Shown: positions 7,345 to 32,171 of the stretch, piece after piece | Layout of the letters: each line of letters begins with the position of its first letter | Numbering within the stretch: position 1 is the first letter of the stretch | Source of the DNA: Eubacteriales bacterium | GTDB lineage: Bacteria; Bacillota; Clostridia; Lachnospirales; Lachnospiraceae | Direction of reading: 5' to 3' | DNA length: 42,448 bases | NCBI GenBank assembly: GCA_030526295.1 | Contig: JAUNDA010000010.1 | Coordinates: 1-42,448 of the forward strand | Translations under genes and position numbers: made by a program | The notes under the pieces: generated by a model | Told to the model about the DNA's origin: nothing | Database searches by the model: none | Seen by the model: only the letters and a program-made list of their open reading frames with translations

Positions 7345-8800
7345 CCTGAGCACCGCCCTTCACAAACATATATGATCCCTCGCCACGATAACGGACATCC
7401 TCCGGCTCGATTCCATACTCATCCCTCAGTATCTCAACGATTCTTCCAAGACAGTATCCGCCCTGGCATCTTCCTGTCATGCACCACGCCCTGTACTTAA
7501 GACCTGCAAGCGTATGAACACCGAGTGGATTCTCAATGGCATCCTTTATCTCCTGCTTTGTAATTGTCTGGCAGCGGCATACAACCTCGCCGTAATCAGG
7601 ATTTTCCTTAATGAGCTCTGCCTGCTTTTCAGGGGTCTGCTCCTTAAACTTGAGAGCAGCCTTATGTGTGCCGTCAAAGCCTTCATTTTCAGTAAGCGGA
7701 AGGATTCCTCCCACAATACCGCAAACCATTCTTGCAATCGGTACAGATGCCGTAAGTCCCGGAGATTCAATTCCAATAAGGTCGATGAATCCAGGAAGTG
7801 CTTCCTCCTCCTTTATAATGAAGTCGTGGTAACCACCCTCTGTTGGCGGTGCCTGCTTCGGACGAATTCCGGCAAAGCCTCCAATAATGTCACTTCTCTT
7901 AAGTGCAGGAAGAAGATCATGTGCCTCCTTCCAGAGCTTATCGAGTATAGGTGCCGTTACTGAATAATCGCTTCCATCGTCAAGATACTCTGCACTTGGC
8001 CCAATGATTACATTGCCGTGGATTGTAGGTGTAAGATGAACTCCGAGTCCTCCGATTCCAGGCTTTGGTGCAGGATATACGGGTACCTTAAGATACTCGT
8101 CCGCAATTGTATCGAGAATAAAATATTCTCCACGGCATGGATAAATCTCATAATCATCGATGCCTGCCATCTTTGCAACCTTAGCCGAGCCAAGGCCTGC
8201 ACTGTTAATGACAACCTTCGCATTAAACTCTTCCCCGCCTGCGGTAACCGTAAAGCCACCCTCGGTTTTATCAATGGCCGTAACCTCATGTGAAAGGAAA
8301 ACCTCCACACCGTTTTTAACGGCATTTTCTGCAAGTGCGATTGTATAAAGGAACGGATCGAATATCGCTGTCTCAGGTGAAATCATTGCGCTTATTCCGC
8401 CAACACCAGGAAGAATCTCATGAAGCTCCTCTGCAGAAACCATTCTGAGTCCCTTACATCCGTTTGCCTCACCCTTTTTAATGAGTCCCTCAAGAATCCT
8501 TTCATCCTCTTCATCAAAGGCCACAAGGAATTTTCCGGTCTTCTTATATGGTACGTCAAGCTCCCTGCAAAGCTCCTCAAAGCCCTGGTTTCCCTCAACG
8601 CAGAGCTTAGCCATAAGACTTCCCGTACGGTTATTGAAGCCCGCATGAACAACAGCGGAATTTCGTCCGCTTGTCTCGCCTGCTACATCAGGGTCCTTTT
8701 CAATAAGAGCCGTCTTAAGTTTATATCGTGAAAGCTCCCTTGCGATGGCACAGCCAACTGCACCACCTCCGACAATCACAACATCATAAGTTTTATTCAT
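7334..8800 (-). CDS. GlpA-type FAD-dependent dehydrogenase with BFD-like [2Fe-2S] domain
   Basis: 488-residue DAO-family protein, annotated in relatives as glycerol-3-phosphate dehydrogenase or L-2-hydroxyglutarate oxidase-like. The Rossmann fingerprint VVIVGGGAVGCAIARELSRY and GRNSAVVHAGF define the FAD domain. The C-terminal 90 residues contain CRCQT and later C-x4-C-x4-C in WCMTGRCQGGYC, the four-cysteine pattern of BFD-like ferredoxin domains. ATG at 8800 has AAGGGAGA 7-8 nt upstream and starts right at the fold; the in-frame ATG at 8827 has no such support. It overlaps the downstream oxidoreductase, so the two probably form a complex. Substrate is not proven by sequence. Confidence 0.88.
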   Translation of the reverse strand: MNKTYDVVIVGGGAVGCAIARELSRYKLKTALIEKDPDVAGETSGRNSAVVHAGFNNRTGSLMAKLCVEGNQGFEELCRELDVPYKKTGKFLVAFDEEDERILEGLIKKGEANGCKGLRMVSAEELHEILPGVGGISAMISPETAIFDPFLYTIALAENAVKNGVEVFLSHEVTAIDKTEGGFTVTAGGEEFNAKVVINSAGLGSAKVAKMAGIDDYEIYPCRGEYFILDTIADEYLKVPVYPAPKPGIGGLGVHLTPTIHGNVIIGPSAEYLDDGSDYSVTAPILDKLWKEAHDLLPALKRSDIIGGFAGIRPKQAPPTEGGYHDFIIKEEEALPGFIDLIGIESPGLTASVPIARMVCGIVGGILPLTENEGFDGTHKAALKFKEQTPEKQAELIKENPDYGEVVCRCQTITKQEIKDAIENPLGVHTLAGLKYRAWCMTGRCQGGYCLGRIVEILRDEYGIEPEDVRYRGEGSYMFVKGGAQDEE

Positions 8801-8870
8801 TTCACTGTCTCCCTTCACAGCTATCATCTGCTATGATTCATTATGAATTTCGTATATTTATCCTACTATT

Positions 8871-8906
8871 CAAAAATCCGGTGTGCAATATTCATTACAA
8901 CCGGAT
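8871..8906 (-). terminator. Intrinsic terminator after deoC
   Basis: ATCCGGT (8876-8882) pairs with ACCGGAT (8900-8906), followed on the minus strand by TTTTTG. It is about 90 nt beyond deoC and would separate udp-deoC from the GlpA-type gene. A weaker GGCAA/TTGCC hairpin lies nearer deoC at 8972-8989. Confidence 0.6.
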
Positions 8907-8996
8907 AATTCGCATTTTGACACCTTCAATATTCAATATTTACCATCAATTCTCATTTTTGGAACAATTATGGCAACAAATGCTTTGCCAAAAAGC

Positions 8997-9647
8997 TTAC
9001 GAATTCTTCATTATCTTGATAAGACGGCTTGTTCCAAGTCTCATTGCACCAAGCTCCACGAATTTTTCGGCATCGTCAAAGGATGAGATTCCGCCTGCGG
9101 CCTTAACCTTCACTCCCTCACCCACATGCTTTTTCATAAGCTCAACATCCTCAAAGGTTGCGCCGCCCTTTGAAAAGCCTGTTGATGTCTTGATATAATC
9201 GGCGCCTGCTGCTGTTACGATTTCGCACATCTTTATCTTTTCATCATCTGTAAGAAGACAGGTTTCAATGATTACCTTGAGAAGCTTTCCATGGCATGCG
9301 TTTTTTACAGCCTTAATCTCTGCCTCAATTTCATCATATCTTTTATCCTTTAGGTCACCGACATTAATTACCATGTCAATCTCTGAAGCACCGTTTTTTA
9401 CTGCGTCCTCAGTTTCAAAAACCTTAACAGCCGTTGTGCTGTAGCCATTCGGAAAGCCTATTACCGTGCAGATAGGAAGCTTTCCGTTTACATACTCAGC
9501 TGCCCTCTTTACATATGAAGCCGGTATGCATGCCGAGGCTGTTTCATATTTGATTGCATCATCAAGAATTGTCTGTATCTGTGCCCATGTTGAATCCACA
9601 CCGAGAAGAGTGTGGTCAACCTTACTTAAAATTTCCTTCTTATCCAT
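8997..9647 (-). CDS. deoC: Deoxyribose-phosphate aldolase
   Basis: 216-residue class I aldolase of normal length. It splits 2-deoxyribose 5-phosphate to glyceraldehyde 3-phosphate and acetaldehyde. The Schiff-base lysine is Lys153 in [10 protein letters not shown]; Asp91 (EIDMVINVG) and Lys182 (VKAAGGI) complete the catalytic set. Its ATG is directly adjacent to the stop of udp, so the pair is one transcription unit for deoxynucleoside salvage. The acetaldehyde product could be reduced by the iron alcohol dehydrogenase in this window, although that gene is in another unit. Confidence 0.96.
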
Positions 9648-20580: not shown

Positions 20581-23064
20581 TTACTTATTCATTTGTTCGA
20601 TGAGCTTAACGGCATCCTCACGCATCTTGTACTTGAGAATCTTGCCCGCTGCATTCATCGGGAAGTGGTCTGTAAATACGATGTATTTTGGAACCTTGTG
20701 TCTTGCAATATGCTCAACACAGTACTTACGCATTGTTTCCTCATCACAGGTCTCACCCTTCTTGAGGATAATGCATGCCATGGCCTCCTCGCCGTATTTC
20801 TTATCAGGAACACCGATAACCTGTACATCCTGTACTGTAGGGTGTGTATAGATGAATTCCTCGATTTCCTTCGGATAAATATTCTCACCACCACGGATGA
20901 TCATATCCTTAAGACGGCCGGTAATGTAATAGTTGCCCTGCTCGTCCTTCATCGCAAGGTCTCCGGAATGAAGCCATCCCTCTGCATCAACTGTAGCCTT
21001 TGTCTCGGCAGGCATCTTGTAGTAGCCCTTCATTGTGTTGTAGCCCTTTGAGCAGAACTCACCGTTCATGCCTGCAGGTAACTCCTCACCTGTCTCAGGG
21101 TCAACAATCTTACAGCTGATGTGCGGGAATGCATATCCAACGGTTTCAGTACGTGTCTTTTCGTCATCCGTCCATGCTGACATTGTACTTCCCGGAGAAG
21201 ACTCTGTCTGTCCGTATACGCTGACAATACCGTACATGTTCATTTCGTCAGGTCTTGCCGCACGCTTCATAAGCTCAGGCGGGCAGCCTGCACCTGCCAT
21301 GATTCCCGTACGCATGTGCGAGAAGTCGGTCTTTCTATAATCGGGATGATTAAACATCGCGATAAACATAGTCGGAACTCCGTTAAAGGCTGTAATCTTT
21401 TCCTGGTTGATACATGCAAGTGAAGCCTTTGCGCTGAAGTATGGCATCGGGCACATGGTAGCACCGTGTGTCATTGATGATGTCATTGAAAGAACCATTC
21501 CGAAGCAGTGGAACATCGGCACCTGAATCATCATGCGGTCTGCTGTTGAAAGACCCATGCGGTCACCGATACACTTTCCGTTGTTTACAACATTGTAATG
21601 TGTAAGCATTACACCCTTCGGGAAGCCTGTTGTACCTGATGTATACTGCATGTTGCAGACATCACCCGGCCTTACGTTTGCAGCCATACGGCGGATTTCC
21701 TCAACGGGAACCATCGATGAACGCTGCATTGCCTCAGGGAATGTAAGACATCCCTTGTGGTTAAAGCCTACCGTAATGACATTACGAAGGAACGGAAGGC
21801 GCTTTGAATGAAGCGGCTGTCCCGGAACAGTATTCTCAAGCTCAGGACAGATTTCCGAAATAATGTCTGAATAGTTCGAATCAAGCGCACTCTCGATCAT
21901 TACGAGTGTATGTGTGTCAGACTGTCTGAGAAGATACTCTGCCTCGTTAATCTTATACGCTGTATTTACAGTAACAAGAACTGCACCGATCTTTGTGGTA
22001 GCCCAGAATGTAATGAACCACTCAGGAACGTTTGTTGCCCAGATTGCAACCTTGCTTCCTGCCTTAACTCCCATTGAAACGAGTGCCCTTGCGAAATTGT
22101 CGACATCGTCCCTGAACTGTGAGTAGGTTCTTGTATAATCAAGTGTCGTATACTTAAAGCAGTACTGGTCCGGGAATTCCTCTACAAGTCTGTCGAGAAC
22201 CTGCGGGAAGGTGAGGTTAATAAGCTCGTCCTTCTTCCAGATGTACTCTCCAGTACCATCGTGGTTAAGGTAAAGTACCTTCTTCTTTCCCCTGGTATCC
22301 TCGAAGCTATGCATGTAGTTGATGAAATGCGGGAAGATAATCTCATACTCCTCTTGGAAGTTAACCCAGCCTGCATGCCACTCAAGTGACACAAAGCCGT
22401 CAAAGTCAACAGAGTAAAGAGCATCAATCATCTCACCTATCGGAAGGCTTCCCTCACCGATAAGCTCATGTCCCTCGGCGTCAAGCGAATCCCTCAGGTG
22501 TACATGCTTTACATATGCACCAAGATTCTTGATTGTTACCGCCGGTGTCTCACCATTCATGCGGAACGGATAATGCATGTTCCACATTACTGCAATCTGA
22601 TCGCTTGCAAAGCTGTCGAGAAGGTCACGAAGACGTGCAGTATCGGAATAGATACCAACAGTCTTGATAAGAAGAATAACGGAATTTGAAGAAAGGATTT
22701 CCTCACTTCTTCCGATGAATTCCTTAACAGCCTCCTCATTTTCAGTCATCGCTGTTACTGCAACATATGGCACCCTGAGGTCATGTGCTGTTTTTACAAG
22801 CTTCTTAAATACCTCGTCTGAAAGCTCATTGGAAGAGATATCGTATGATGTATCAAGACATGATACGGAAACCTTCTTTTCAGCAAATTCCCTTGCTGTT
22901 GCGGCAATGGAATAACGGTTGAGAGCCCCACCCGGCTGGAATGCAGCCTCATCATTCTGAACATTGAAAAGCTCAACGCCGTCAAATCCCATCTCCGATG
23001 CGATATTCATGCATTCCCTTATTGAAAGAGCGGGCCATGCACGTGTTGAGAAGGACAGCTTCAT
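20581..23064 (-). CDS. Degenerate TIM-barrel isomerase domain fused to acyl-CoA ligase
   Basis: 827 residues, two domains. Residues about 1-255 are a xylose-isomerase-like/sugar-phosphate-isomerase TIM barrel. Two usual metal ligands look replaced: the Glu of the LLIET motif is Lys134 (LLIKTVG) and the Asp of WDxHHP is Asn162 (WNMHYP). His189 (KHVHLRDS) and Glu228 (SLEWHAG) remain. Residues about 265-827 are an ANL-family fatty-acyl-CoA synthetase with YTSGTTGFPKG (474-484), YGQTESSPG, GWLHSGDL, GRLKDMIIRGGENIYP and the C-terminal catalytic lysine Lys808 (AAGKILK). The ligase should make an acyl-CoA from a carboxylic acid, ATP and CoA. Last gene of the operon; it overlaps the LeuA-like gene by 4 nt. 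Substrate is inferred (branched short acids), not seen. Confidence 0.9.
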   Translation of the reverse strand: MKLSFSTRAWPALSIRECMNIASEMGFDGVELFNVQNDEAAFQPGGALNRYSIAATAREFAEKKVSVSCLDTSYDISSNELSDEVFKKLVKTAHDLRVPYVAVTAMTENEEAVKEFIGRSEEILSSNSVILLIKTVGIYSDTARLRDLLDSFASDQIAVMWNMHYPFRMNGETPAVTIKNLGAYVKHVHLRDSLDAEGHELIGEGSLPIGEMIDALYSVDFDGFVSLEWHAGWVNFQEEYEIIFPHFINYMHSFEDTRGKKKVLYLNHDGTGEYIWKKDELINLTFPQVLDRLVEEFPDQYCFKYTTLDYTRTYSQFRDDVDNFARALVSMGVKAGSKVAIWATNVPEWFITFWATTKIGAVLVTVNTAYKINEAEYLLRQSDTHTLVMIESALDSNYSDIISEICPELENTVPGQPLHSKRLPFLRNVITVGFNHKGCLTFPEAMQRSSMVPVEEIRRMAANVRPGDVCNMQYTSGTTGFPKGVMLTHYNVVNNGKCIGDRMGLSTADRMMIQVPMFHCFGMVLSMTSSMTHGATMCPMPYFSAKASLACINQEKITAFNGVPTMFIAMFNHPDYRKTDFSHMRTGIMAGAGCPPELMKRAARPDEMNMYGIVSVYGQTESSPGSTMSAWTDDEKTRTETVGYAFPHISCKIVDPETGEELPAGMNGEFCSKGYNTMKGYYKMPAETKATVDAEGWLHSGDLAMKDEQGNYYITGRLKDMIIRGGENIYPKEIEEFIYTHPTVQDVQVIGVPDKKYGEEAMACIILKKGETCDEETMRKYCVEHIARHKVPKYIVFTDHFPMNAAGKILKYKMREDAVKLIEQMNK

Positions 23065-24479
23065 GAGAGAGCCTCCTCATAAACAATCTTGTTAAGTGCG
23101 TTCATGTATGCAAGGATTGCAGAACCAACAACGTCTGTTGAGATGCCCTTACCTGAGTAAAGCTTTCCCTTTGAGCGAAGTCTTACGATTGTCTGACCCA
23201 TTGCCTCGCGGCCCTCTGTAATAGCCTGAATCTGGAAATCATCAAGCTCATAGTGGCAGCCTGTTACCTTTTCAATTGCAAGGTATGATGCGTCTACAGG
23301 TCCGTCTCCAAGTGAAAGGCCGTCCATGACTGTTCCGTCCTTTTCAATCTTAATGTGTGCAAGTGCCTCGCGCTCACCAGAGATTGAAATCATGTAATCA
23401 GAAAGCTTATAGGTCTCAGGAACCTGCATTGCCTCTGCTGCGACAATTGACTCAAGCTCCTTTAATCCAACTGTTTCCTTCTTTGCGGCAATCTTCTTGA
23501 AGGCATCATAAACCTTGATAACGTCCTCGCTTGAAAGCTCATAGCCAAGCTTCTCGCATGCCTTCTTAAGTGATTCCATGCTGTCATCAGCACTTAATAC
23601 GTCTGTATCAGAATACTCGCGAACGCCAGATTCAAACGGGCTGCCGCTACTCTTTTCCGTGCTCAGAATATTGTTAATCTGATCCATAACACGGTTAAGC
23701 TCTGCGTTTCTTATGCTTGAGCATGCATCAAGTGCATCACCTCTCTGGCTGAGCACCTTTGCAAGGTTACGAAGTGAAGGTGCGTTTACACTTCCTGCAC
23801 CTGCCTTAACCTCATTTGCACCGTTCTTAATTGCTGCAACTGCACATGCATCGGCCATTGAAAGCTCATTTGTGCATGAAACGGCAAATGCCACATCCTT
23901 TAATCCGGGAACCTCCTCGAAAAGTCCCTTTACGAAGTCACCAAACTCCTCAGGAAGCATAACTCCTGCATTGTCTGTTACTGTTACAGTTTTTGCACCA
24001 GCCTCAATTGCAGCCTGCATGATTGAGCTTAAGAATTCCCTGTCGGCACGTGTAGCATCAAGTGCCGCAAATTCAACCTCTACATTCTGTCCCTTAAGGT
24101 AGCTGACAGCCTCCTTAACCTCATCAAAGATTACCTGCGGTTTCTTGTGGTAGATATACTCCATCTGAACAACACTTACAGGCACCTCAACCTGAAGGCG
24201 TACCTTTCTTGCTGACTTTACGGCATTAAGAACCATATCCTGGTTCTCCCTTGAGAGCTTAACCGGAACAGCAAGTGTTGAACCATTTACTGCCGTGCAG
24301 ATAGACTTAATGCGAAGTGCGTCCGCCTGGTCATTCTCAATGCCCTCGATTTCGATTACATCTGCTCCAAGACGGTCAAGAAGCTTTGCCACTTCAATTT
24401 TCTCACGAAAAGACAGGGATACGTTTCCTGCCTTTTCGCTGTTTTTCATTGTTACATCACTGAAAATAATTTTTCTCAT
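23061..24479 (-). CDS. LeuA-like protein with catalytic residues lost
   Basis: 472 residues, homologous over their length to 2-isopropylmalate/homocitrate synthase: TIM barrel about 1-275, linker, and a LeuA-type allosteric domain about 360-472 (GDGPVDASYLAIEKV, ITEGREAMGQ, ALNKI). The family DTTLRDGEQ motif reads DVTMKNSEK (8-16), so the catalytic Arg-Asp pair is Lys12-Asn13. The metal-binding HxH of HCHND reads SCTNE (201-205), giving Ser and Thr instead of both histidines. The usual ExDATRSD is LDATRAD. Condensing activity is therefore very unlikely, while the leucine-binding-type domain is well kept. A regulatory or scaffold role in the operon is inferred. ATG at 24479 follows the VOR gamma gene by 15 nt; it overlaps the ligase fusion downstream. 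Confidence 0.85.
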   Translation of the reverse strand: MRKIIFSDVTMKNSEKAGNVSLSFREKIEVAKLLDRLGADVIEIEGIENDQADALRIKSICTAVNGSTLAVPVKLSRENQDMVLNAVKSARKVRLQVEVPVSVVQMEYIYHKKPQVIFDEVKEAVSYLKGQNVEVEFAALDATRADREFLSSIMQAAIEAGAKTVTVTDNAGVMLPEEFGDFVKGLFEEVPGLKDVAFAVSCTNELSMADACAVAAIKNGANEVKAGAGSVNAPSLRNLAKVLSQRGDALDACSSIRNAELNRVMDQINNILSTEKSSGSPFESGVREYSDTDVLSADDSMESLKKACEKLGYELSSEDVIKVYDAFKKIAAKKETVGLKELESIVAAEAMQVPETYKLSDYMISISGEREALAHIKIEKDGTVMDGLSLGDGPVDASYLAIEKVTGCHYELDDFQIQAITEGREAMGQTIVRLRSKGKLYSGKGISTDVVGSAILAYMNALNKIVYEEALS

Positions 24480-24494
24480 ATATTCACTACTCCA

Positions 24495-25028
24495 TCAATA
24501 CTCATATCCTGTTTTTACAGCGAGCTGGTTTAATTCAATCATCGCTGCCTTCTTTGCCGGTATAAGCTTTGATAGGACTGTTGGAACGTTCTCATAATTG
24601 ATTACGCCTGTCTCCTTTAACATCTTTCCGACAAGAATGATGTTTGAAAGTGATGCGATGTTGAGGCCTCTTGCAAGCTCTGTTGCAGGAACCGGAATAA
24701 ACTCAACGTCGTCACGATCACATGGTGAATCAATAAGTGTGCTGTCATAAATAACCTTTGCACCAGGTACACACTCAGGTACATATTTGTCAAATGACGG
24801 CTTGTTCATTGCAATAAGGATATCGGGATGGCTTACGATAGGAGTTCCTACCGGGCTGTCAGAGATGATAACGCTGCAGTTTGCAGTACCGCCACGCATC
24901 TCCGGTCCATATGACGGGAGCCAGCTTAATTCCCTTCCCTCAAGCATTGCGGAATAAGCAAGAAACTTACCTGCGAAAAGAGCACCCTGTCCGCCGAAGC
25001 CCGCAATCAGAATATTTGCTGTTTTCAT
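24495..25028 (-). CDS. 2-oxoacid:ferredoxin oxidoreductase, gamma subunit
   Basis: 177 residues, the POR_N/gamma-type subunit ([20 protein letters not shown] at the start; [19 protein letters not shown]). It completes the four-subunit enzyme with the beta subunit (4-nt overlap), alpha subunit and ferredoxin. Such enzymes interconvert 2-oxoacids and acyl-CoA plus CO2 using ferredoxin. Confidence 0.93.
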
Positions 25029-25780
25029 GCTTTCTCCTCCTCTGCTGTTCTGTCCTTATATACGCCAAGCGGATAGTAAGGAATCATAGCCTCGTCAATC
25101 CACTCAAGAGCCTTGTCAGGTGTCATGCCCCAGTTTGTCGGACATGCTGAGATAACCTCTACAAATGAGAAGCCCTTCTTGTTGATCTGGTTCTCAAATG
25201 CCTTTTTGATGGCCTTGCCTGCCTTTCTTACGTTTGCAGGATTGTTAACTGCAACTCTCTCGATGTAGCATGGGCCCTCAAGTGTAGCAAGAAGCTCACT
25301 TACCCTTACAGGCCATCCGCAGTGAGATGTGTCTCTTCCATATGGAGAGGTCTGTGTAACCTGTCCCGGAAGTGATGTCGGAGCCATCTGTCCGCCTGTC
25401 ATGCCGTAAATGGCATTGTTTACGAAGATAATTGTGATATTTTCATTTCTTGCTGCTGAATGAACTGTCTCAGCCATACCGATTGAAGCAAGGTCTCCGT
25501 CACCCTGGTATGAGAAAACAACCTTTGAAGGGTTGGCTCTCTTTATTCCAGTTGCAACTGCCGGAGCTCTACCGTGAGCAGCCTCAATCATGTCAACATC
25601 AAAATAGTTATAAGCAAATACTGCACAGCCTACAGGTGCAACACCGATTGTCTCTCCCTGGATACCAAGTGAGTCAATTGCCTCTGCAACAAGTCTGTGA
25701 ATGATACCATGTGTGCATCCGGGACAGTAATGAAGCGGTGCATCGAGAAGTGACTTTGGTTTTTCAAATACAACTGCCAT
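25025..25780 (-). CDS. 2-oxoacid:ferredoxin oxidoreductase, beta (TPP-binding) subunit
   Basis: 251 residues. The thiamine pyrophosphate site is [12 protein letters not shown] followed by [18 protein letters not shown] near residue 20 and the [13 protein letters not shown] region are typical of KorB/VorA-type subunits. It holds the TPP where the 2-oxoacid is cleaved or formed. Overlaps the alpha and gamma genes by 1-4 nt. Confidence 0.94.
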
Positions 25781-26850
25781 TATCTGTTACCTCCGTTCTG
25801 TTCATTAGCTGCCTCAATTGCTGCAAGAACCTCCTCAGGTGAAGGAATCATTCCGCCAGCCCTCGAGCATAAGCTTACAGGTCTTCTGCACTCTGTTGAA
25901 AGCTTTACATCCTCAATCATCTGACCCATTGAAAGCTCAACTGAGATGAATGCCTTGCACTTATCGGCTGCCTTATTAAGTGCCTCCTTCGGGAATGGCC
26001 AGAGGGTAATCGGTCTGATCATTCCTACCTTGATGCCCTTTTCCCTTGCTGCTCTTACTGCGTTTCTTGAGACCCTTGATGCGATACCGAATGCAACTAC
26101 GCAAATCTCAGCATCCTCCATCATGAATTCCTCGCATCTTGCCTCGTTTGCCTCTACTACTGCATAACGCTCATATCTTGAAACGTTCCACTGCTCAAGC
26201 TCTTCAGGAGCCAGTGAAAGCGATGTGATTACATTATGATGATCCCTGTTACCCTTACCTGTAAGAGCATATGGCTTTTCATACTGTGTTGGCTCTGTCT
26301 CAGGCATTGCAACAGGCTCCATCATCTGACCGATTGTACCATCTGCAAGAATCATTGCAGGAATGCGGTACTTGTCAGAAAGATCGAATGCAAGACCTGT
26401 CATGTCTGCCATTTCCTGAACTGTTGCAGGAGCGAGAACGATAAGGTGGTAGTCACCATGTCCGCCGCCACGTGTAGCCTGGAAATAGTCTGACTGTGAT
26501 GGCTGGATTCCACCAAGTCCAGGGCCGCCTCTCTGTACATTTACGATAACTGCCGGAAGATCACTTCCTGCAAGGTATGAGATGCCCTCTCCCTTTAATG
26601 AGATTCCCGGTGAGGATGATGATGTCATACATCTCTTTCCTGCTGCCGAGCATCCGTAAATCATATTGATTGCGGCAATTTCACTTTCTGCCTGAAGGAA
26701 GCAGCCACCGATCTTCGGCATGCGCTTAGCCATATAGGCAGCAATTTCTGTCTGCGGGGTAATCGGGTAGCCGAAATAATGTCTGCATCCGGCCTTGATA
26801 GCCGCTTCCGCGATTGCCTCATTACCTTTCATTAAAACCTTCTCAGCCAT
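25780..26850 (-). CDS. vorB: 3-methyl-2-oxobutanoate:ferredoxin oxidoreductase subunit alpha (VorB type)
   Basis: 356 residues. [57 protein letters not shown] and [19 protein letters not shown] follow the VorB pattern of the branched-chain 2-oxoacid enzyme. In the oxidative direction it turns branched 2-oxoacids into branched acyl-CoA, and in the reductive direction it fixes CO2 onto acyl-CoA. The branched-chain aminotransferase in the same operon supports this substrate class; a 2-oxoglutarate specificity cannot be excluded by sequence alone. GAGAGG precedes ATG at 26850. Confidence 0.9.
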
Positions 26851-26853
26851 ATC

Positions 26854-27057
26854 TTACCTCTCTACCGTAATAATGCAGTCAGGGCACATGAGTGCGCAGG
26901 ATGCACATCCAACACATGCCTCCATATCATTTACCGTTGCCGCACTGTAGCCCTTCTTGTTAAGGGTGTCGGATAAAACGATGATGTGCTTTGGGCAGGC
27001 TGATACACAAAGTCCGCAGCCCTTGCACATATCGGTATTAAAACTTACTTTAGCCAT
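26854..27057 (-). CDS. 2 x [4Fe-4S] ferredoxin, delta subunit
   Basis: 67 residues with two complete ferredoxin motifs: Cys11, 14, 17, 21 and Cys48, 51, 54, 58. It is the delta subunit that links the oxidoreductase to free ferredoxin. It overlaps the P-loop ATPase gene by 8 nt and sits 3 nt before the alpha gene. Confidence 0.95.
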   Translation of the reverse strand: MAKVSFNTDMCKGCGLCVSACPKHIIVLSDTLNKKGYSAATVNDMEACVGCASCALMCPDCIITVER

Positions 27058-27733
27058 TTTTATTTACCTCTGCAAAATACTTAAACTGAAGCCTTAGTCC
27101 GAAGATGTTTTCCTCCGGAACGAGTTCCTTCACCTTATCCGCAAGCCTCTCCTCCACGGTGGTCATAACACAGGGAAGTCCGCTTAATTTTTCAAGCTCG
27201 CGAACCTTTTTCACACTGTCCGCTATATCCTGCGCCTCTGTTTCCTCACCAAGGTTCGAATTATTGATTATTGCAGTAAACTGAAGGTGGTCTGCTGCCT
27301 CTATTTCCTTCATTACCTCAAGTGCCGCTTTTGCGTCACGCGTTAAGGGTCTGAAGAAATTGACAACAAAGAACTTCTCGTAATTGTCCTCCTCCTTTAG
27401 ATACGGGATAAGACGTCCGAGTGCCAAAGCACCCCTGTCGTCTCCCCCGATATCAATACAGGAATAGCAGGATTTGTCCTCCACGCTCCTGTAGATTTCA
27501 GCAGGAAGTGCCGGAAGGTCGACATTTGAATTGGCATAGGCAGATGAAATGAATTCGATGCCAGCCCTTTCAAAATCCTCTTTGCTGTCCTTTGTTCTGA
27601 AGTACGGATTTACAATGTCGAGGTCCGCAACAATCACCCTTTTGCCCTCATCACGAAGACGGAAGGCATAATTTACTGCAATATTCGTTTTTCCGCTGCC
27701 GTAGTGGCCTGCGAATAATGCGATTCTTTTCAT
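27050..27733 (-). CDS. P-loop ATPase of the ParA/CobQ-like class
   Basis: 227 residues. Walker A-like AGHYGSGKTN (about 8-17), a switch segment VIVADLDIVNPYFRTKD, and VVNFFRPLTRDAKAA. It lacks domains that would name a substrate. Placed between the aminotransferase (ATGA overlap) and the ferredoxin subunit, it may help assemble or activate the oxidoreductase, for example its Fe-S clusters; that is inference from position only. Confidence 0.82.
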   Translation of the reverse strand: MKRIALFAGHYGSGKTNIAVNYAFRLRDEGKRVIVADLDIVNPYFRTKDSKEDFERAGIEFISSAYANSNVDLPALPAEIYRSVEDKSCYSCIDIGGDDRGALALGRLIPYLKEEDNYEKFFVVNFFRPLTRDAKAALEVMKEIEAADHLQFTAIINNSNLGEETEAQDIADSVKKVRELEKLSGLPCVMTTVEERLADKVKELVPEENIFGLRLQFKYFAEVNKNG

Positions 27734-28833
27734 CAGTCTACCTTAATACCTGTCTCGAATACCCATCCGCCCATGAAGTCTTCTACCTTACCGGTCTGCA
27801 TGCCGTAAAGGTTGTCATAGAGCTTCTGTGCAAGAGGTCCTACCTCGCCGTTTGCAACAACGTAGTCTGTACCCTTTACGCAAAGGCATCCGATTGGTGA
27901 AATAACAGCTGCTGTTCCACTTGCGAAGATTTCCTCAAGGCTTCCGTCCTTTGATGCCTCCATAACCTCATCGATTGAAAGCTTTCTCTCTGATACCGGA
28001 ACGCCCCACTTTGTGAGCATCTGGATTACTGAATTTCTTGTGATTCCCGGAAGGATTGTGCCGCTTGTAAGAGGAGCTGTGATTACCTCACCGTTAATCT
28101 TGAAGAATGCATTTGATGTACCGATTTCCTCAACATACTTATGCTCAGCTGCATCAAGCCATAAAACGTCCTTACAGTTCCACTTGATGGCTTCCTTTGA
28201 AGCTCTCATTCCGCCGCCGTAGTTTCCGCCGCACTTAGCGAAGCCAGTGCCGCCCTTTGCTGCACGGATGTACTCATCCTGAACATAGATACGTGTTGTG
28301 TGAAGTCCTGTGTCATTTGCTGCATAGTATGAACCTGTCGGGCTTAAGATAATCATGAAGCGGTAATGCTTTGCAGGAAGAACTGAGAATGAAACCTCAT
28401 CACCGAAGATGAATGGACGGATGTAAAGTGCTGTATTTGGAGCCTTTGGAACCCAGTCTGCATCAACACTGATAAGTGCCTTAACAGCCTCAACGAGAAG
28501 TCCGTCTGGAAGCTCCGGAATGCACATACGCTCATTTGTTCTCTTCATTCTTGCCTCGTTCATGTCAGGACGGAAAAGAAGGATTTCTCCATCAGCCCTG
28601 CGGTATGCCTTCATACCCTCGAACATCATCTGGGCATAGTGAAGAACACATGAAGCAGGCTCGATCATGATTGGTGCATGTGGAACGATTCTTCCGTCAT
28701 GCCAGCCCTGGCCCTCATCATAGTCCATAACGAACATATGGTCTGTGAAATAACGTGCAAAGCCCATTGTACTTTCGTCTGCAGGTCTTTCCTTCGGGTT
28801 TGTTGTTCTTGTTACAGGAAATTCGTACTTCAT
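27733..28833 (-). CDS. ilvE: Branched-chain amino acid aminotransferase
   Basis: 366-residue class IV PLP enzyme of the longer (eukaryote-like/BCAT) subtype. The PLP lysine is Lys200 in GTGFAKCGGNYGG. Other marks: MMFEGMKAYRR, LYIRPFIFG, GTSNAFFKI and TLPGI-like TILPGITRNS. It interconverts Val, Ile and Leu with their 2-oxoacids using glutamate. GGAGAG precedes ATG at 28833. Its position directly before the oxidoreductase genes links the 2-oxoacid pool to the amino acids. Confidence 0.95.
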   Translation of the reverse strand: MKYEFPVTRTTNPKERPADESTMGFARYFTDHMFVMDYDEGQGWHDGRIVPHAPIMIEPASCVLHYAQMMFEGMKAYRRADGEILLFRPDMNEARMKRTNERMCIPELPDGLLVEAVKALISVDADWVPKAPNTALYIRPFIFGDEVSFSVLPAKHYRFMIILSPTGSYYAANDTGLHTTRIYVQDEYIRAAKGGTGFAKCGGNYGGGMRASKEAIKWNCKDVLWLDAAEHKYVEEIGTSNAFFKINGEVITAPLTSGTILPGITRNSVIQMLTKWGVPVSERKLSIDEVMEASKDGSLEEIFASGTAAVISPIGCLCVKGTDYVVANGEVGPLAQKLYDNLYGMQTGKVEDFMGGWVFETGIKVD

Positions 28834-28872: not shown

Positions 28873-29655
28873 TTATATGTACATCTCGGGGCGTCTGTCC
28901 CTGAATACATTTATCGATTCACGTATACCCTTGATTATTGACATGTCACAGTCGGCGCTTATGCTTTCCTCATGCTCTCCGGCGCAGATAAGCTCCCTGC
29001 CCCACGGATCGAATATCACCGAACCGCCGCCGTAAACAGTCTCTCCTGCGCTGCCACATGAGTTGCAGCCCACGGTAAACATCTGGTTTTCAATGGCCCT
29101 TGCCTTTAATAATGTATGGTAATGTTCCATTCTTACCTTTGGCCACTGAGCCACGTTAAAGAGGACATCCACTCCCTCCACGGTCATTGAGCGTGTAAGC
29201 TCCGGGAAACGTACATCATAGCAGATGATGAGTGCACATTTTACACCATCAAGTGTAAACATGCATTTTCTGTCGCCCTTCTGATAGCTTTCATGCTCTC
29301 CCATAGGACTGAAAAGATGCGTCTTGTCATAAGACGCAATTTCCTTTCCCTCACGGTTGAAAACGTGGGCAGTGTTATAAATGTCACTGCCCCTTTTTTC
29401 TGTCACGCTTCCCGCGATTATATTTACCTTTAACTCCTTTGCGAGTCTTCCAGCCATCTCACAGACACGTTCACCGTTTTCATCCGCAAGCGATGCAATG
29501 TCACCATGCGGATAAAAACCCGTGTTCCATGTTTCCGGAAGAACAATTACATCCGGTCCTTCTGAAGCCGCTTTTCTGATAAGGCATTCAGCCTTTTCAA
29601 AATTCTCATCCGGCTTTTCGAAGATCATATCCATCTGTATACATGTAATCTTCAT
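28873..29655 (-). CDS. Carbon-nitrogen hydrolase (nitrilase superfamily, omega-amidase-like)
   Basis: 260 residues with the full catalytic triad: Glu41 (VLPETWNTG), Lys111 (YDKTHLFSP) and Cys145 (IICYDVRFPEL). Length and motifs are closest to Nit2/YafV-type omega-amidases, which hydrolyse alpha-keto-amides left by glutamine transaminases. That would fit beside an aminotransferase, but the amide substrate cannot be read from sequence. GGAG precedes ATG at 29655; 12 nt after the upstream ligase gene and 39 nt before ilvE. Confidence 0.88.
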   Translation of the reverse strand: MKITCIQMDMIFEKPDENFEKAECLIRKAASEGPDVIVLPETWNTGFYPHGDIASLADENGERVCEMAGRLAKELKVNIIAGSVTEKRGSDIYNTAHVFNREGKEIASYDKTHLFSPMGEHESYQKGDRKCMFTLDGVKCALIICYDVRFPELTRSMTVEGVDVLFNVAQWPKVRMEHYHTLLKARAIENQMFTVGCNSCGSAGETVYGGGSVIFDPWGRELICAGEHEESISADCDMSIIKGIRESINVFRDRRPEMYI

Positions 29656-29667
29656 TTAATTCTCCAA

Positions 29668-31941
29668 TCAGAGCTTGTTTCTCTGAATCTTTCCGCTTAT
29701 TGACTTTGGAAGTGAATCGCGGAATACAACTATTCTCGGATACTTGTAAGGAGCCGTATGTGTCTTTACATAGTTCTGGATTTCCTTCTTGAGCTCCTCT
29801 GTCGGCTCTGTACCCTTTGTGAGAACGATGCTTGCCTTTACAACCTGACCTCTTACCTCGTCCGGTGCAGCACTTACGCCACACTCAAGAACGTATGGAA
29901 GCTCCATGATAACTGACTCGATCTCGAACGGTCCGATACGGTATCCTGAAGACTTGATAACGTCATCTGCACGTCCGACATACCATAAGAAGCCGTCCTC
30001 ATCCTGGTAAGCGACATCGCCTGTATGGTAGAAGCCATCGTGCCAAACCTCTGCTGTCTTCTCCTCGTCGTCGTAGTAGCCCTGGAAAAGTCCCGGAGGT
30101 ACTGTCTCTGATGTCTTGACACAGATCTCACCTGACTCACCGATCTCGGCCTCTTCTCCATCGGCCTTAAGAACGTGGATGTCGTAAAGAGGCGTTGCCT
30201 TACCCATTGAACCGATCTTATGTGGCTCACCGAGAAGGTTACCGATCATGAGTGTGCCCTCAGTCTGGCCGAAGCCTTCCTTGATACGAAGTCCCGTAGC
30301 CTTTTCAAACTGGCGGTAAACCTCAGGGTTAAGTGCCTCACCTGCTGTTGTCATATGAACAACCGATGAAAGGTCATATTTGGAGATGTCCTCCTTAACC
30401 ATCATTCTGAGCATTGTTGGCGGTGCACAGAAGGATGTGATGTGATACTTTGCAAAGAGCGGAAGGATATCCGATGCAGAGAATCTTTCAAAGTCATAAA
30501 CGAATACTGCTGCCTCACAGAGCCACTGGCCGTAGAGCTTGCCCCAGAGTGATTTGCCCCAGCCTGTGTCTGAGATTGTGAAGTGAAGTCCGTCGTCGAG
30601 AACTCCGTGCCAGTACTTTGCTGTCATGTAGTGGCCGAGTGCATACAGGTAGCTGTGCTTTACAAGCTTCGGATAACCTGTTGTTCCCGATGAGAAGAAT
30701 GCGATCATTGTGTCATTTCCGCATGGTGTCTCATCTGAACGGTAGAAGTGTGCACTGTACATCGGGAATTCCTCATCGAAGCAGTGCCATCCGTCCCTTC
30801 TCTCTCCGCCTACGCTTATCTTGAGTGTAAGACTCGGACATGTCTTCTGTGCGAGGTCAACCTGGTGTGTTGCATCTCCATAGCCTGTGCAGACGATTGC
30901 CTTAACTCCGGCCTTCTGGAAACGGTACTCATAGTCATGTGCAATCAGCTGGTCTGTAGCCGGGATTGCGATAGCACCGATCTTGTGGCATGCAAGGATT
31001 GAATACCAGAACTCGTACTGTCTTCTTAAGACGAGCATAACCTTGTCGCCCTTCTTGATTCCAAGTGCCTGGAAATAGTTTGCTGTCTGGTTTGAAGCAC
31101 GCTTGATATCCCTGAATGTAAAGCGTCTCTCAGCCTTCTCAGCTGTAAGATGAACCATAGCGAGCTTATCAGGGCTCTTTCTTGCGATTTCATCCACGAT
31201 ATCGAATGCGAAGTTGAACTTGTCGAGGTTCTTGAAGTTAAGCTTCTTAAGAACTCCGTTCTCATCCTCGTCACAGGTTACATACTTATCTGAAACATAT
31301 GCCTTCTTAACCTGCTTTGCCTTCGGGATGAGTGTCTCACGGATAAGATCCTCCTTCTGGTCCTCACCCGGAAGAACGACTGCGATAAAGTGACAGTCCT
31401 CTCCGTCAACGGCGATCATACCGTGTGGTGTTGAAGAGTTGTAGAAGATGCTGTCGCCTGGCTCAAGGCATTCCCAGTTGTCACCAACCTGTACCTTAAG
31501 CTTACCGCTTATTACATAGTCAAACTCCTGTCCTGAGTGTGTTGTTGTATGGATTGGCTTGTCCTGAAGCTTCTCATCATACTCATAATGTACATAGTAG
31601 GGCTCAGCAAGCTTCTTTCTGAACATCGGAGCCATGTTGATAATCTCGATGCCGTCTTCCTTTGCTGTTTCCTGACCCTGTCCCTTACGTGTAACGGTAT
31701 AGGACTTAAGCATTGCCGAACGACCTTCAAGAAGATCAGAAATACCGATATCAAAAGTCTGTGCGCATTTATGAATGAATGTAAATGGGAAATCGAGCTG
31801 TCCCTTCTCATACTTTAAGTACTGTTCCTGGGAAACCTCGGTCTTCTCTGCCATCTCGGCGATGCTGTAGCCACATATTGCTCGCATCTCCCTTATACGC
31901 TGACCGACTTCTAATAGCTTGTCTTCTCCTTTGTTTGCCAT
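29668..31941 (-). CDS. HTH-cupin-acyl-CoA ligase fusion
   Basis: 757 residues, three domains. Residues 11-70 are an XRE-type helix-turn-helix (GQRIREMRAICGYSIAEMA). Residues about 118-192 are a cupin with candidate ligands His131/His135, Glu139 and His173 (TPHGMIAV). Residues about 240-757 are an ANL ligase of the medium-chain/benzoate-like type with SSGTTGYPK (417-425), GFGQTEGT, YHTGDVAY, GRADDVIKSSGYRIGP and the end KSISGKIQRNKL. It should activate a carboxylic acid to acyl-CoA and may also bind DNA, a trigger-enzyme arrangement. ATG at 31941 has AGGAGG 6 nt upstream; the in-frame ATG at 31959 lacks this. First structural gene of the ten-gene operon, 71 nt past an attenuator-like terminator. 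Confidence 0.9.
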   Translation of the reverse strand: MANKGEDKLLEVGQRIREMRAICGYSIAEMAEKTEVSQEQYLKYEKGQLDFPFTFIHKCAQTFDIGISDLLEGRSAMLKSYTVTRKGQGQETAKEDGIEIINMAPMFRKKLAEPYYVHYEYDEKLQDKPIHTTTHSGQEFDYVISGKLKVQVGDNWECLEPGDSIFYNSSTPHGMIAVDGEDCHFIAVVLPGEDQKEDLIRETLIPKAKQVKKAYVSDKYVTCDEDENGVLKKLNFKNLDKFNFAFDIVDEIARKSPDKLAMVHLTAEKAERRFTFRDIKRASNQTANYFQALGIKKGDKVMLVLRRQYEFWYSILACHKIGAIAIPATDQLIAHDYEYRFQKAGVKAIVCTGYGDATHQVDLAQKTCPSLTLKISVGGERRDGWHCFDEEFPMYSAHFYRSDETPCGNDTMIAFFSSGTTGYPKLVKHSYLYALGHYMTAKYWHGVLDDGLHFTISDTGWGKSLWGKLYGQWLCEAAVFVYDFERFSASDILPLFAKYHITSFCAPPTMLRMMVKEDISKYDLSSVVHMTTAGEALNPEVYRQFEKATGLRIKEGFGQTEGTLMIGNLLGEPHKIGSMGKATPLYDIHVLKADGEEAEIGESGEICVKTSETVPPGLFQGYYDDEEKTAEVWHDGFYHTGDVAYQDEDGFLWYVGRADDVIKSSGYRIGPFEIESVIMELPYVLECGVSAAPDEVRGQVVKASIVLTKGTEPTEELKKEIQNYVKTHTAPYKYPRIVVFRDSLPKSISGKIQRNKL

Positions 31942-31998
31942 GATAACCTCCTGCCTCACTATTATTTCTTAAGTAACCTTTTGTTATGAATCGTTAAT

Positions 31999-32040
31999 GT
32001 CCTTAAGCATTAAAAAGGACCGCAGCACCTGCCGCAGCCC
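31999..32040 (-). terminator. Attenuator: intrinsic terminator with overlapping alternative hairpin
   Basis: In the minus-strand RNA GGGCUGCGGC (plus 32031-32040), loop AGGU, GCUGCGGUCC (32017-32026) form a 10-bp stem with three G-U pairs, followed by UUUUU (32012-32016). A competing stem, GUCCUU (32015-32020) with AAGGAC (31999-32004), uses the same 3' arm, so the two cannot form together. It lies between a leader peptide gene and the first operon gene. Confidence 0.7.
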
Positions 32041-32072
32041 TCGAATAAACACCTTTTTTCACCCACCGTGTT

Positions 32073-32171
32073 TCAGCATACGACAAATGCACTGTTCTCG
32101 TTCTTAATAATTAGTCCGATAACAGCGATAATAGCTGAAATAATAATGTTAACGATGTTGAAATTAAACAT
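32073..32171 (-). CDS. Ile/Val-rich leader peptide
   Basis: 32 codons plus TGA, with GGAG 6 nt before the ATG. It encodes nine Ile, four Val and one Leu, including Ile-Ile-Ile at codons 9-11 (ATT ATT ATT), two more Ile pairs (14-15 and 21-22) and Val-Val at 30-31 just before the stop. It starts about 23-30 nt after the promoter and ends 33 nt before the terminator stem. This is the layout of an ilv-type attenuation leader: ribosome stalling on Ile/Val codons would favour readthrough. The peptide is also hydrophobic enough to be a small membrane peptide, so a type I toxin-like product is the main alternative. Confidence 0.65.
   Translation of the reverse strand: MFNFNIVNIIISAIIAVIGLIIKNENSAFVVC

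Follow-up and report, generated by a model that had tools for sequence, protein, structure and literature searches.

A gene at positions 23061..24479 (minus strand) of the window, by which we mean the whole analysed stretch of 42,448 nucleotides of Lachnospiraceae DNA (GenBank assembly GCA_030526295.1, contig JAUNDA010000010.1), encodes a homologue of 2-isopropylmalate synthase (LeuA) with a degenerate active site. Judged from sequence, this degenerate LeuA is a pseudoenzyme under selection, because its active site is missing in 84 of 84 orthologue rows, all of which fall into one clade, and because the ratio of nonsynonymous to synonymous substitution rates (dN/dS) in eight close pairs is between 0.031 and 0.109, indicating purifying selection. 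We propose, with a probability of roughly 60%, that it acts as a regulatory subunit, responsive to leucine, of the acyl coenzyme A (acyl-CoA) ligase encoded by the adjoining gene, in a route leading from isovalerate to leucine.

Loss of the active site and conservation of the regulatory domain

The gene is a complete minus-strand frame of 472 codons, in line with the intact frame noted in the initial annotation, and the plus strand of the same interval contains stops all through. Both degenerate motifs named in that annotation were found exactly as given: the family motif DTTLRDGEQ reads DVTMKNSEK (residues 8 to 16; 24432..24458, minus strand), and the metal-binding motif HCHND reads SCTNE (residues 201 to 205; 23865..23879, minus strand). 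Pfam recognized an HMGL-like barrel at residues 4 to 226 (117.9 bits) and the LeuA_dimer allosteric domain (PF08502) at residues 340 to 465 (23085..23462, minus strand; 100.6 bits), the latter being the best-kept region of the protein. The closest curated relatives were 2-isopropylmalate synthases, all far below their cut-offs; the score against the type I LeuA equivalog model of NCBIfam, TIGR00973, was 264.2 bits, the cut-off being 598.7. The closest solved structures by sequence were chains of 2-isopropylmalate synthase and related proteins (3ewb, 3eeg, 3rmj and 6e1j), and a search of the anti-phage library gave zero matches.

Pattern scanning across 84,980 species genomes yielded 119 relatives, and the best 80 of these 119 were taken forward. 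We aligned 84 orthologue rows, including that of the window, with 13 ordinary LeuA sequences and counted residues by column. These rows hold 82 distinct sequences: loci L002 and L031 are one contig from two collections, and L070 and L071 are identical copies on one 265-kb contig, one close to either end, and may reflect an assembly duplication. The score cut of 390 bits left out L006, which is a fragment, and L072, the one genome in which the gene (7953-9407) is broken into two frames.

Guided by what we take to be the active-site residues of Mycobacterium tuberculosis LeuA, we picked positions 12, 13, 96, 140, 170, 201 and 203 and judged them on the alignment columns. R12, D13, H201 and H203 were each present in 13/13 ordinary LeuA sequences. 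Among the orthologues, D13, H201 and H203 were each found in 0/84 rows; residue 12 was R in 9 rows and K in 70, and R12 and D13, the catalytic Arg-Asp pair of DTTLRDGEQ, never occurred together (0/84). The HxH metal site is likewise missing, and 14 columns conserved in ordinary LeuA are deleted, these covering the GxGERAGN loop and some of the catalytic region that follows the barrel. The possibility that an intact Arg-Asp pair and HxH lie elsewhere in the chain, which the initial annotation had itself named as grounds for refutation, was ruled out, since a scan of the whole window protein revealed neither HxH nor RD anywhere (the sole histidines are residues 111, 375 and 409). Its statement that every ligand had been lost holds for D13, H201 and H203 but not for D8, E43, D141, R144 and D169, which, together with T166, are present in 84/84 orthologues. 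Recurrent polar substitutes occupy the altered pocket (Q13 in 64/84, Q96 in 77/84 and Q105 in 78/84), positions 201 and 203 are freely variable, and the conservation of ten catalytic positions was not significantly higher than that of random barrel positions (0.77 versus 0.68; p 0.13).

To compare the domains, we took columns that are conserved in at least 12 of the 13 ordinary LeuA sequences and not deleted in the orthologues, and called a column kept when the majority of orthologues had the same residue. By this measure 18 of 24 columns were kept in LeuA_dimer, compared with 30 of 75 in the barrel and 7 of 31 in the linker. LeuA_dimer was detected in 82 of 82 aligned members, and the regulatory domain is thus as well preserved as had initially been noted.

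The degenerate proteins are 459 to 474 amino acids long, versus 506 to 529 for type I LeuA. A quick tree of 102 rows grouped all 84 orthologues in a single clade, which has a long stem and neighbours the clostridial type I LeuA sequences; this placement carries a long-branch warning. A tree built from only the allosteric domain, with 20 of the 84 orthologue rows, 13 LeuA and 9 other sequences including a spurious frame, gave the same picture with moderate support. Among 145 related genomes, an orthologue was present in five besides that of the window, at 50 to 56% identity and in one case only as fragments. Judged by record titles, the carriers are gut and rumen Clostridia plus a few others, including Eggerthellaceae (L098 and L102).

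A ligase fusion as the constant partner

In 84/84 rows, the next gene after the degenerate LeuA encodes a xylose-isomerase-like barrel fused to an AMP-forming acyl-CoA ligase. In the window, this barrel-ligase fusion lies at 20581..23064 (minus strand; barrel part 22255-23064) and overlaps the degenerate LeuA gene by 4 nt. Across the rows, the junction is a 4-nt overlap in 59/84, a 1-nt overlap in 12/84 and otherwise a gap of 1 to 11 nt. The degenerate LeuA is hence an enzyme relative devoid of catalytic residues that is encoded together with a separate catalytic partner. Within the genus of the window's genome (25 genomes), the long fusion was present in exactly the six genomes with the degenerate LeuA. 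Identity to the window's proteins was mostly 71 to 87% for the ligase domain, 34 to 52% for the fused barrel and 43 to 55% for the degenerate LeuA. In the fused barrel, 67 of 69 aligned rows have Asp at position 162, where the window has Asn, and the barrel may itself be non-catalytic. Searching solved structures with it brought no useful match (best E 0.0037).

A 2-oxoacid:ferredoxin oxidoreductase (VOR) was considered as the constant partner and ruled out by synteny, since its genes lie directly upstream in few loci only. The VOR gamma gene is 15 bp upstream of the degenerate LeuA gene in the window; L002/L031, L053 and L105 likewise have VOR immediately upstream on the same strand, and in L005 and L056 one gene lies between. 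The remaining maps show VOR in divergent orientation or downstream, or show none within the flank that was fetched, and some have a gene resembling that for pyruvate:ferredoxin oxidoreductase (PFOR) instead; in L035 and L085, PFOR adjoins the fusion. VOR does share clusters with the degenerate LeuA, as does the aminotransferase IlvE in some loci. Because the fusion adjoins the degenerate LeuA in every row, we conclude that the ligase, not VOR, is the constant partner. Two clusters lie among genes of branched-chain amino acid synthesis: in L085 (Parasporobacterium), the degenerate LeuA and the fusion are preceded by the acetolactate synthase gene, ilvC, ilvD and ilvE, with PFOR downstream, and in L098 (Hugonella), they are upstream of leuD, a true leuA and leuB.

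Leucine-specific leaders

A T-box antiterminator motif was found 75 to 284 nt upstream of the degenerate LeuA in 69/84 rows (in two with one mismatch), compared with 1 of 319 other called open reading frames (ORFs) of these loci, a control set of greedy calls of which some are surely spurious. In an Rfam scan of seven loci besides the window, five (L037, L041, L060, L068 and L085) had a T-box above gathering directly upstream of the gene. To read the specifiers, the register was calibrated on T-boxes preceding ileS, valS (three), asnS, pheS and thrS, these genes being named by hidden Markov models on partial frames. The specifier was CUN (leucine) in 68/68 scored leaders (CUG in 32, CUC in 29 and CUU in 7), L090 having been left unscored; bases 1 and 2 were invariant, and base 3 changed only between leucine codons. 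At the level of the family, the degenerate LeuA thus belongs to a leucine T-box regulon. T-boxes specific for leucine increase expression in response to uncharged tRNA-Leu. The leucine address seems to belong to the ligase, because the fusion of a genome in which the degenerate LeuA is lacking (G063) is also preceded, at a distance of about 430 nt, by a T-box (L119, 801-1067) for which covariance alignment reads GAA-CUC-G.

In two genomes in which the T-box motif is missing (G001 and G024), a Leu-rich leader peptide, VSLLLGGLLLG, precedes the degenerate LeuA gene and is followed by a hairpin, both hairpins having been read by eye. The Leu-rich leader of L133 scores 9, a value reached by 25 of 804 control ORFs, and that of L136 lies 242 to 332 nt upstream, partly beyond the 300-nt control span. 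These leaders stand out less against the controls than the T-boxes do.

The canonical leucine pathway in carrier genomes

In the window's genome (94.4% complete), we found no other LeuA_dimer protein, no IlvC and no LeuD/aconitase C-terminal domain, and each of these searches was positive in 14/14 control genomes. PF00920, considered for IlvD, was not used because it seemed to take in other dehydratases. Among 50 further carriers, 40 were without another LeuA_dimer protein and 29 without IlvC. IlvC loss was dropped as a general mark of carriers for this reason, and the association with LeuA_dimer alone was used. A LeuA_dimer protein besides the degenerate LeuA was present in 11 of 56 carrier rows (6 genomes of the genus plus 50 of the 80 loci, one genome appearing twice, as G016 and G145) and a LeuA_dimer protein in 114 of 139 related non-carriers. 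Within the genus, the figures were 1/6 carriers versus 16/19 non-carriers (Fisher p 0.0055), a test that ignores relatedness and a contrast that is weakened by gaps in metagenome-assembled genomes (MAGs). This distribution suggests that most of the carriers searched have replaced the isopropylmalate route.

Other genes of the window operon and sister ligases

Upstream of the degenerate LeuA gene, on the same minus strand, the window carries genes for the gamma (24495..25028), beta (thiamine pyrophosphate-binding; 25025..25780) and alpha subunits of VOR (25780..26850; VorB family, 549.9 bits, cut-off 399). Further upstream are genes for a ParA/MinD-like P-loop protein (27050..27733), which recurs in such clusters between the ligase and VOR genes, the branched-chain aminotransferase IlvE (27733..28833; NF009897, 437.7 bits, cut-off 307), a carbon-nitrogen hydrolase (28873..29655) and a second ligase (29668..31959), in which helix-turn-helix (HTH) and cupin domains are fused to an MbcS-like acyl-CoA ligase. 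The operon is preceded by a putative leader peptide of 32 amino acids (32073..32171, minus strand), which by our count by eye contains 9 Ile, 4 Val and 1 Leu, and by a subsequent terminator-like hairpin with a T-run (32012..32043, minus strand); leader and hairpin look like an attenuator of the whole operon. A different Ile-rich leader peptide lies ahead of the corresponding ligase in L137. Runs of at least 10 Ile, Leu or Val in 14 residues occurred in 10 of 804 control ORFs, four of which belong to branched-chain amino acid operons (L085, L088, L090 and L137). The ilv operons of L085 and L090 have leader peptides rich in branched-chain amino acids ahead of their acetolactate synthase gene, with the sequence SLIVLLLVSAILVLR in one and a diverged relative of it in the other.

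HTH-cupin ligases, often two of them, share clusters with the degenerate LeuA. Their layout (window 29668-31959; relatives L031-L108) resembles a transcription factor and an enzyme in one protein. A T-box motif precedes 41 of 73 such ligases, one gene being counted twice (L031 and L137, both without a T-box), and the specifiers were Ile in 32, Val in 9 and Leu in 0; six of the 41 were read by eye and the rest by the distance rule, with covariance checks in L051 and L089 only. The window's genome has a second HTH-cupin ligase on another contig (L170; 56% identity), and a search for a leader peptide before it found none.

Proposed role and alternatives

We favor the reading in which the degenerate LeuA regulates the adjoining ligase in response to leucine. 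The three kinds of ligase, whose putative substrates we deduce from their T-box addresses, would activate isovalerate, 2-methylbutyrate and isobutyrate, and VOR or PFOR would carboxylate the resulting CoA esters towards the branched-chain amino acids. In the leucine branch, the barrel-ligase fusion would convert isovalerate to isovaleryl-CoA, VOR or a PFOR-like enzyme with reduced ferredoxin would convert this to 2-oxoisocaproate, and IlvE would transaminate 2-oxoisocaproate to leucine. Leucine shortage would be sensed on the RNA, by the leucine T-box or, in two genomes, by the Leu-rich leader peptide. Leucine excess would be sensed on the protein: leucine would bind to LeuA_dimer, and the degenerate LeuA would shut the ligase down in the manner of HisZ and HisG. 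It is about an even bet that, upon loss of the isopropylmalate route, the brake of the old pathway moved to its replacement, the first enzyme of the old route having become the leucine sensor of the isovalerate-CoA ligase; this reading is suggested by the fact that a barrel devoid of its active site, encoded next to the presumed first enzyme of the new route, has retained the regulatory domain through which leucine inhibits LeuA. The initial annotation had envisaged a repurposed LeuA, perhaps a leucine sensor or scaffold for the oxidoreductase or ligase encoded beside it. Its leucine-sensing and ligase-partner parts are well supported by context, namely the invariable adjacency and the uniform leucine specifiers of the leaders that could be read, with leucine binding and contact with the ligase presumed; its oxidoreductase part is not, given how few loci have VOR directly upstream.

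Several observations weigh against the regulatory role. An adjacent T-box motif is missing in 15/84 rows, and a sensitive scan of three of these (L051, L089 and L101) found none. The window's own operon has no T-box, and its leader peptide is Ile-rich rather than Leu-rich. In L068, covariance alignment inserts one base beside the specifier and reads UCU, the distance rule alone reading CUG. IlvC is present in 21/50 carriers and another LeuA_dimer protein in 10/50, so the proposed route is not always the only one, and many carrier genomes are, by their titles, MAGs, and are incomplete. Two more distant genomes, G063 and G093, have the fusion without the degenerate LeuA, and none was found either in the genome of a third, G137, where the fusion is broken into pieces lying at contig edges; the degenerate LeuA thus needs the ligase, and not vice versa. 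Finally, we infer leucine binding, complex formation and inhibition of the ligase, as well as the sign of the regulation, the ligase substrate and the direction of carbon flow.

Strict pairing, overlapping genes and a barrel that is likewise under selection would also be expected of a purely structural partner, which would assemble or stabilise the fusion barrel to barrel with leucine being irrelevant. We regard this as unlikely, since LeuA_dimer rather than the barrel is the best-kept part and a leucine T-box precedes most copies. A changed chemistry, in which the altered pocket would catalyse a reaction that needs no metal, with isovaleryl-CoA or 2-oxoisocaproate as a possible substrate, could account for the recurrent glutamines at positions 13, 96 and 105 and for the six residues retained in all orthologues. 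It is nevertheless rather doubtful, because the catalytic positions are not conserved significantly above the barrel, positions 201 and 203 vary freely and the post-barrel region is partly deleted.

That the degenerate LeuA acts as a regulator or scaffold of VOR instead of the ligase is suggested by the VOR gamma gene next to it in the window and by the same-strand VOR upstream in the loci named above; with the fusion adjacent throughout, VOR in the other maps being divergent, downstream or missing from the flank that was fetched, and PFOR adjoining the fusion in L035 and L085, this appears improbable. IlvE and VOR are reversible and are used in amino acid fermentation too, and the cluster might therefore degrade leucine, which the degenerate LeuA would sense as a substrate. 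We consider degradation still harder to credit: a leucine T-box acts in the sense opposite to that expected of a catabolic operon, the usual direction of AMP-forming ligases is towards acyl-CoA, and the degenerate LeuA and fusion have leu genes as neighbours in L098, as they have ilv genes in L085. A decaying pseudogene, to which the lost active site might point, was rejected and can practically be dismissed in view of the 82 distinct full-length sequences, the low dN/dS (0.03 to 0.11) and the single clade.

Comparison with known systems

The degenerate LeuA resembles type I LeuA (TIGR00973) in its HMGL-like barrel and LeuA_dimer domain and in the position of its clade beside the clostridial type I enzymes; unlike type I LeuA, it is devoid of Arg-Asp, HxH and the GxGERAGN loop and has a shortened post-barrel region. 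In the canonical route, as described in the part of the source drawn on here, leucine feedback-inhibits LeuA through the C-terminal regulatory domain (PMC11057210). The feedback enzyme of a lost pathway appears to have been retained as a sensor for the replacement pathway. The analogue that we propose is HisZ, the regulatory subunit of the short-form ATP phosphoribosyltransferase, which, according to the portion of the account used here, has no catalysis of its own, contains a histidine pocket and controls HisG (PMC9734150). In both cases a non-catalytic protein with an end-product pocket would control a separate catalytic protein. HisZ differs in being another protein of another pathway, and for the degenerate LeuA the complex and the effector are deduced.

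The HTH-cupin ligase has its best NCBIfam match in MbcS (NF047394) at 426.6 bits, but this is under the cut-off of 850, and unlike MbcS, it carries fused HTH and cupin domains. Exact-word queries of titles and abstracts in the open-licence literature found no description of a LeuA pseudoenzyme or of such T-box ligases.

Rumen bacteria have been described to form leucine from isovalerate, isoleucine from 2-methylbutyrate and valine from isobutyrate by carboxylation (Allison 1962 and 1966, as cited in PMC7356843). This is the same carbon route as that proposed here, and the clusters, with their Leu, Ile and Val T-box ligases and a ferredoxin-dependent oxidoreductase, fit it. The part of that account drawn on here names no genes, T-boxes or regulator (PMC7356843), whereas we propose genes for the route. 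The clusters offer testable gene assignments for the synthesis of leucine, isoleucine and valine from branched-chain volatile fatty acids in the rumen, tRNA-specific switches giving the ligases their addresses. If the reading is correct, ligases addressed by Leu, Ile and Val T-boxes feed a shared oxidoreductase, and a pathway known biochemically since the 1960s gains both its genes and a double control logic, exerted on RNA and on protein.

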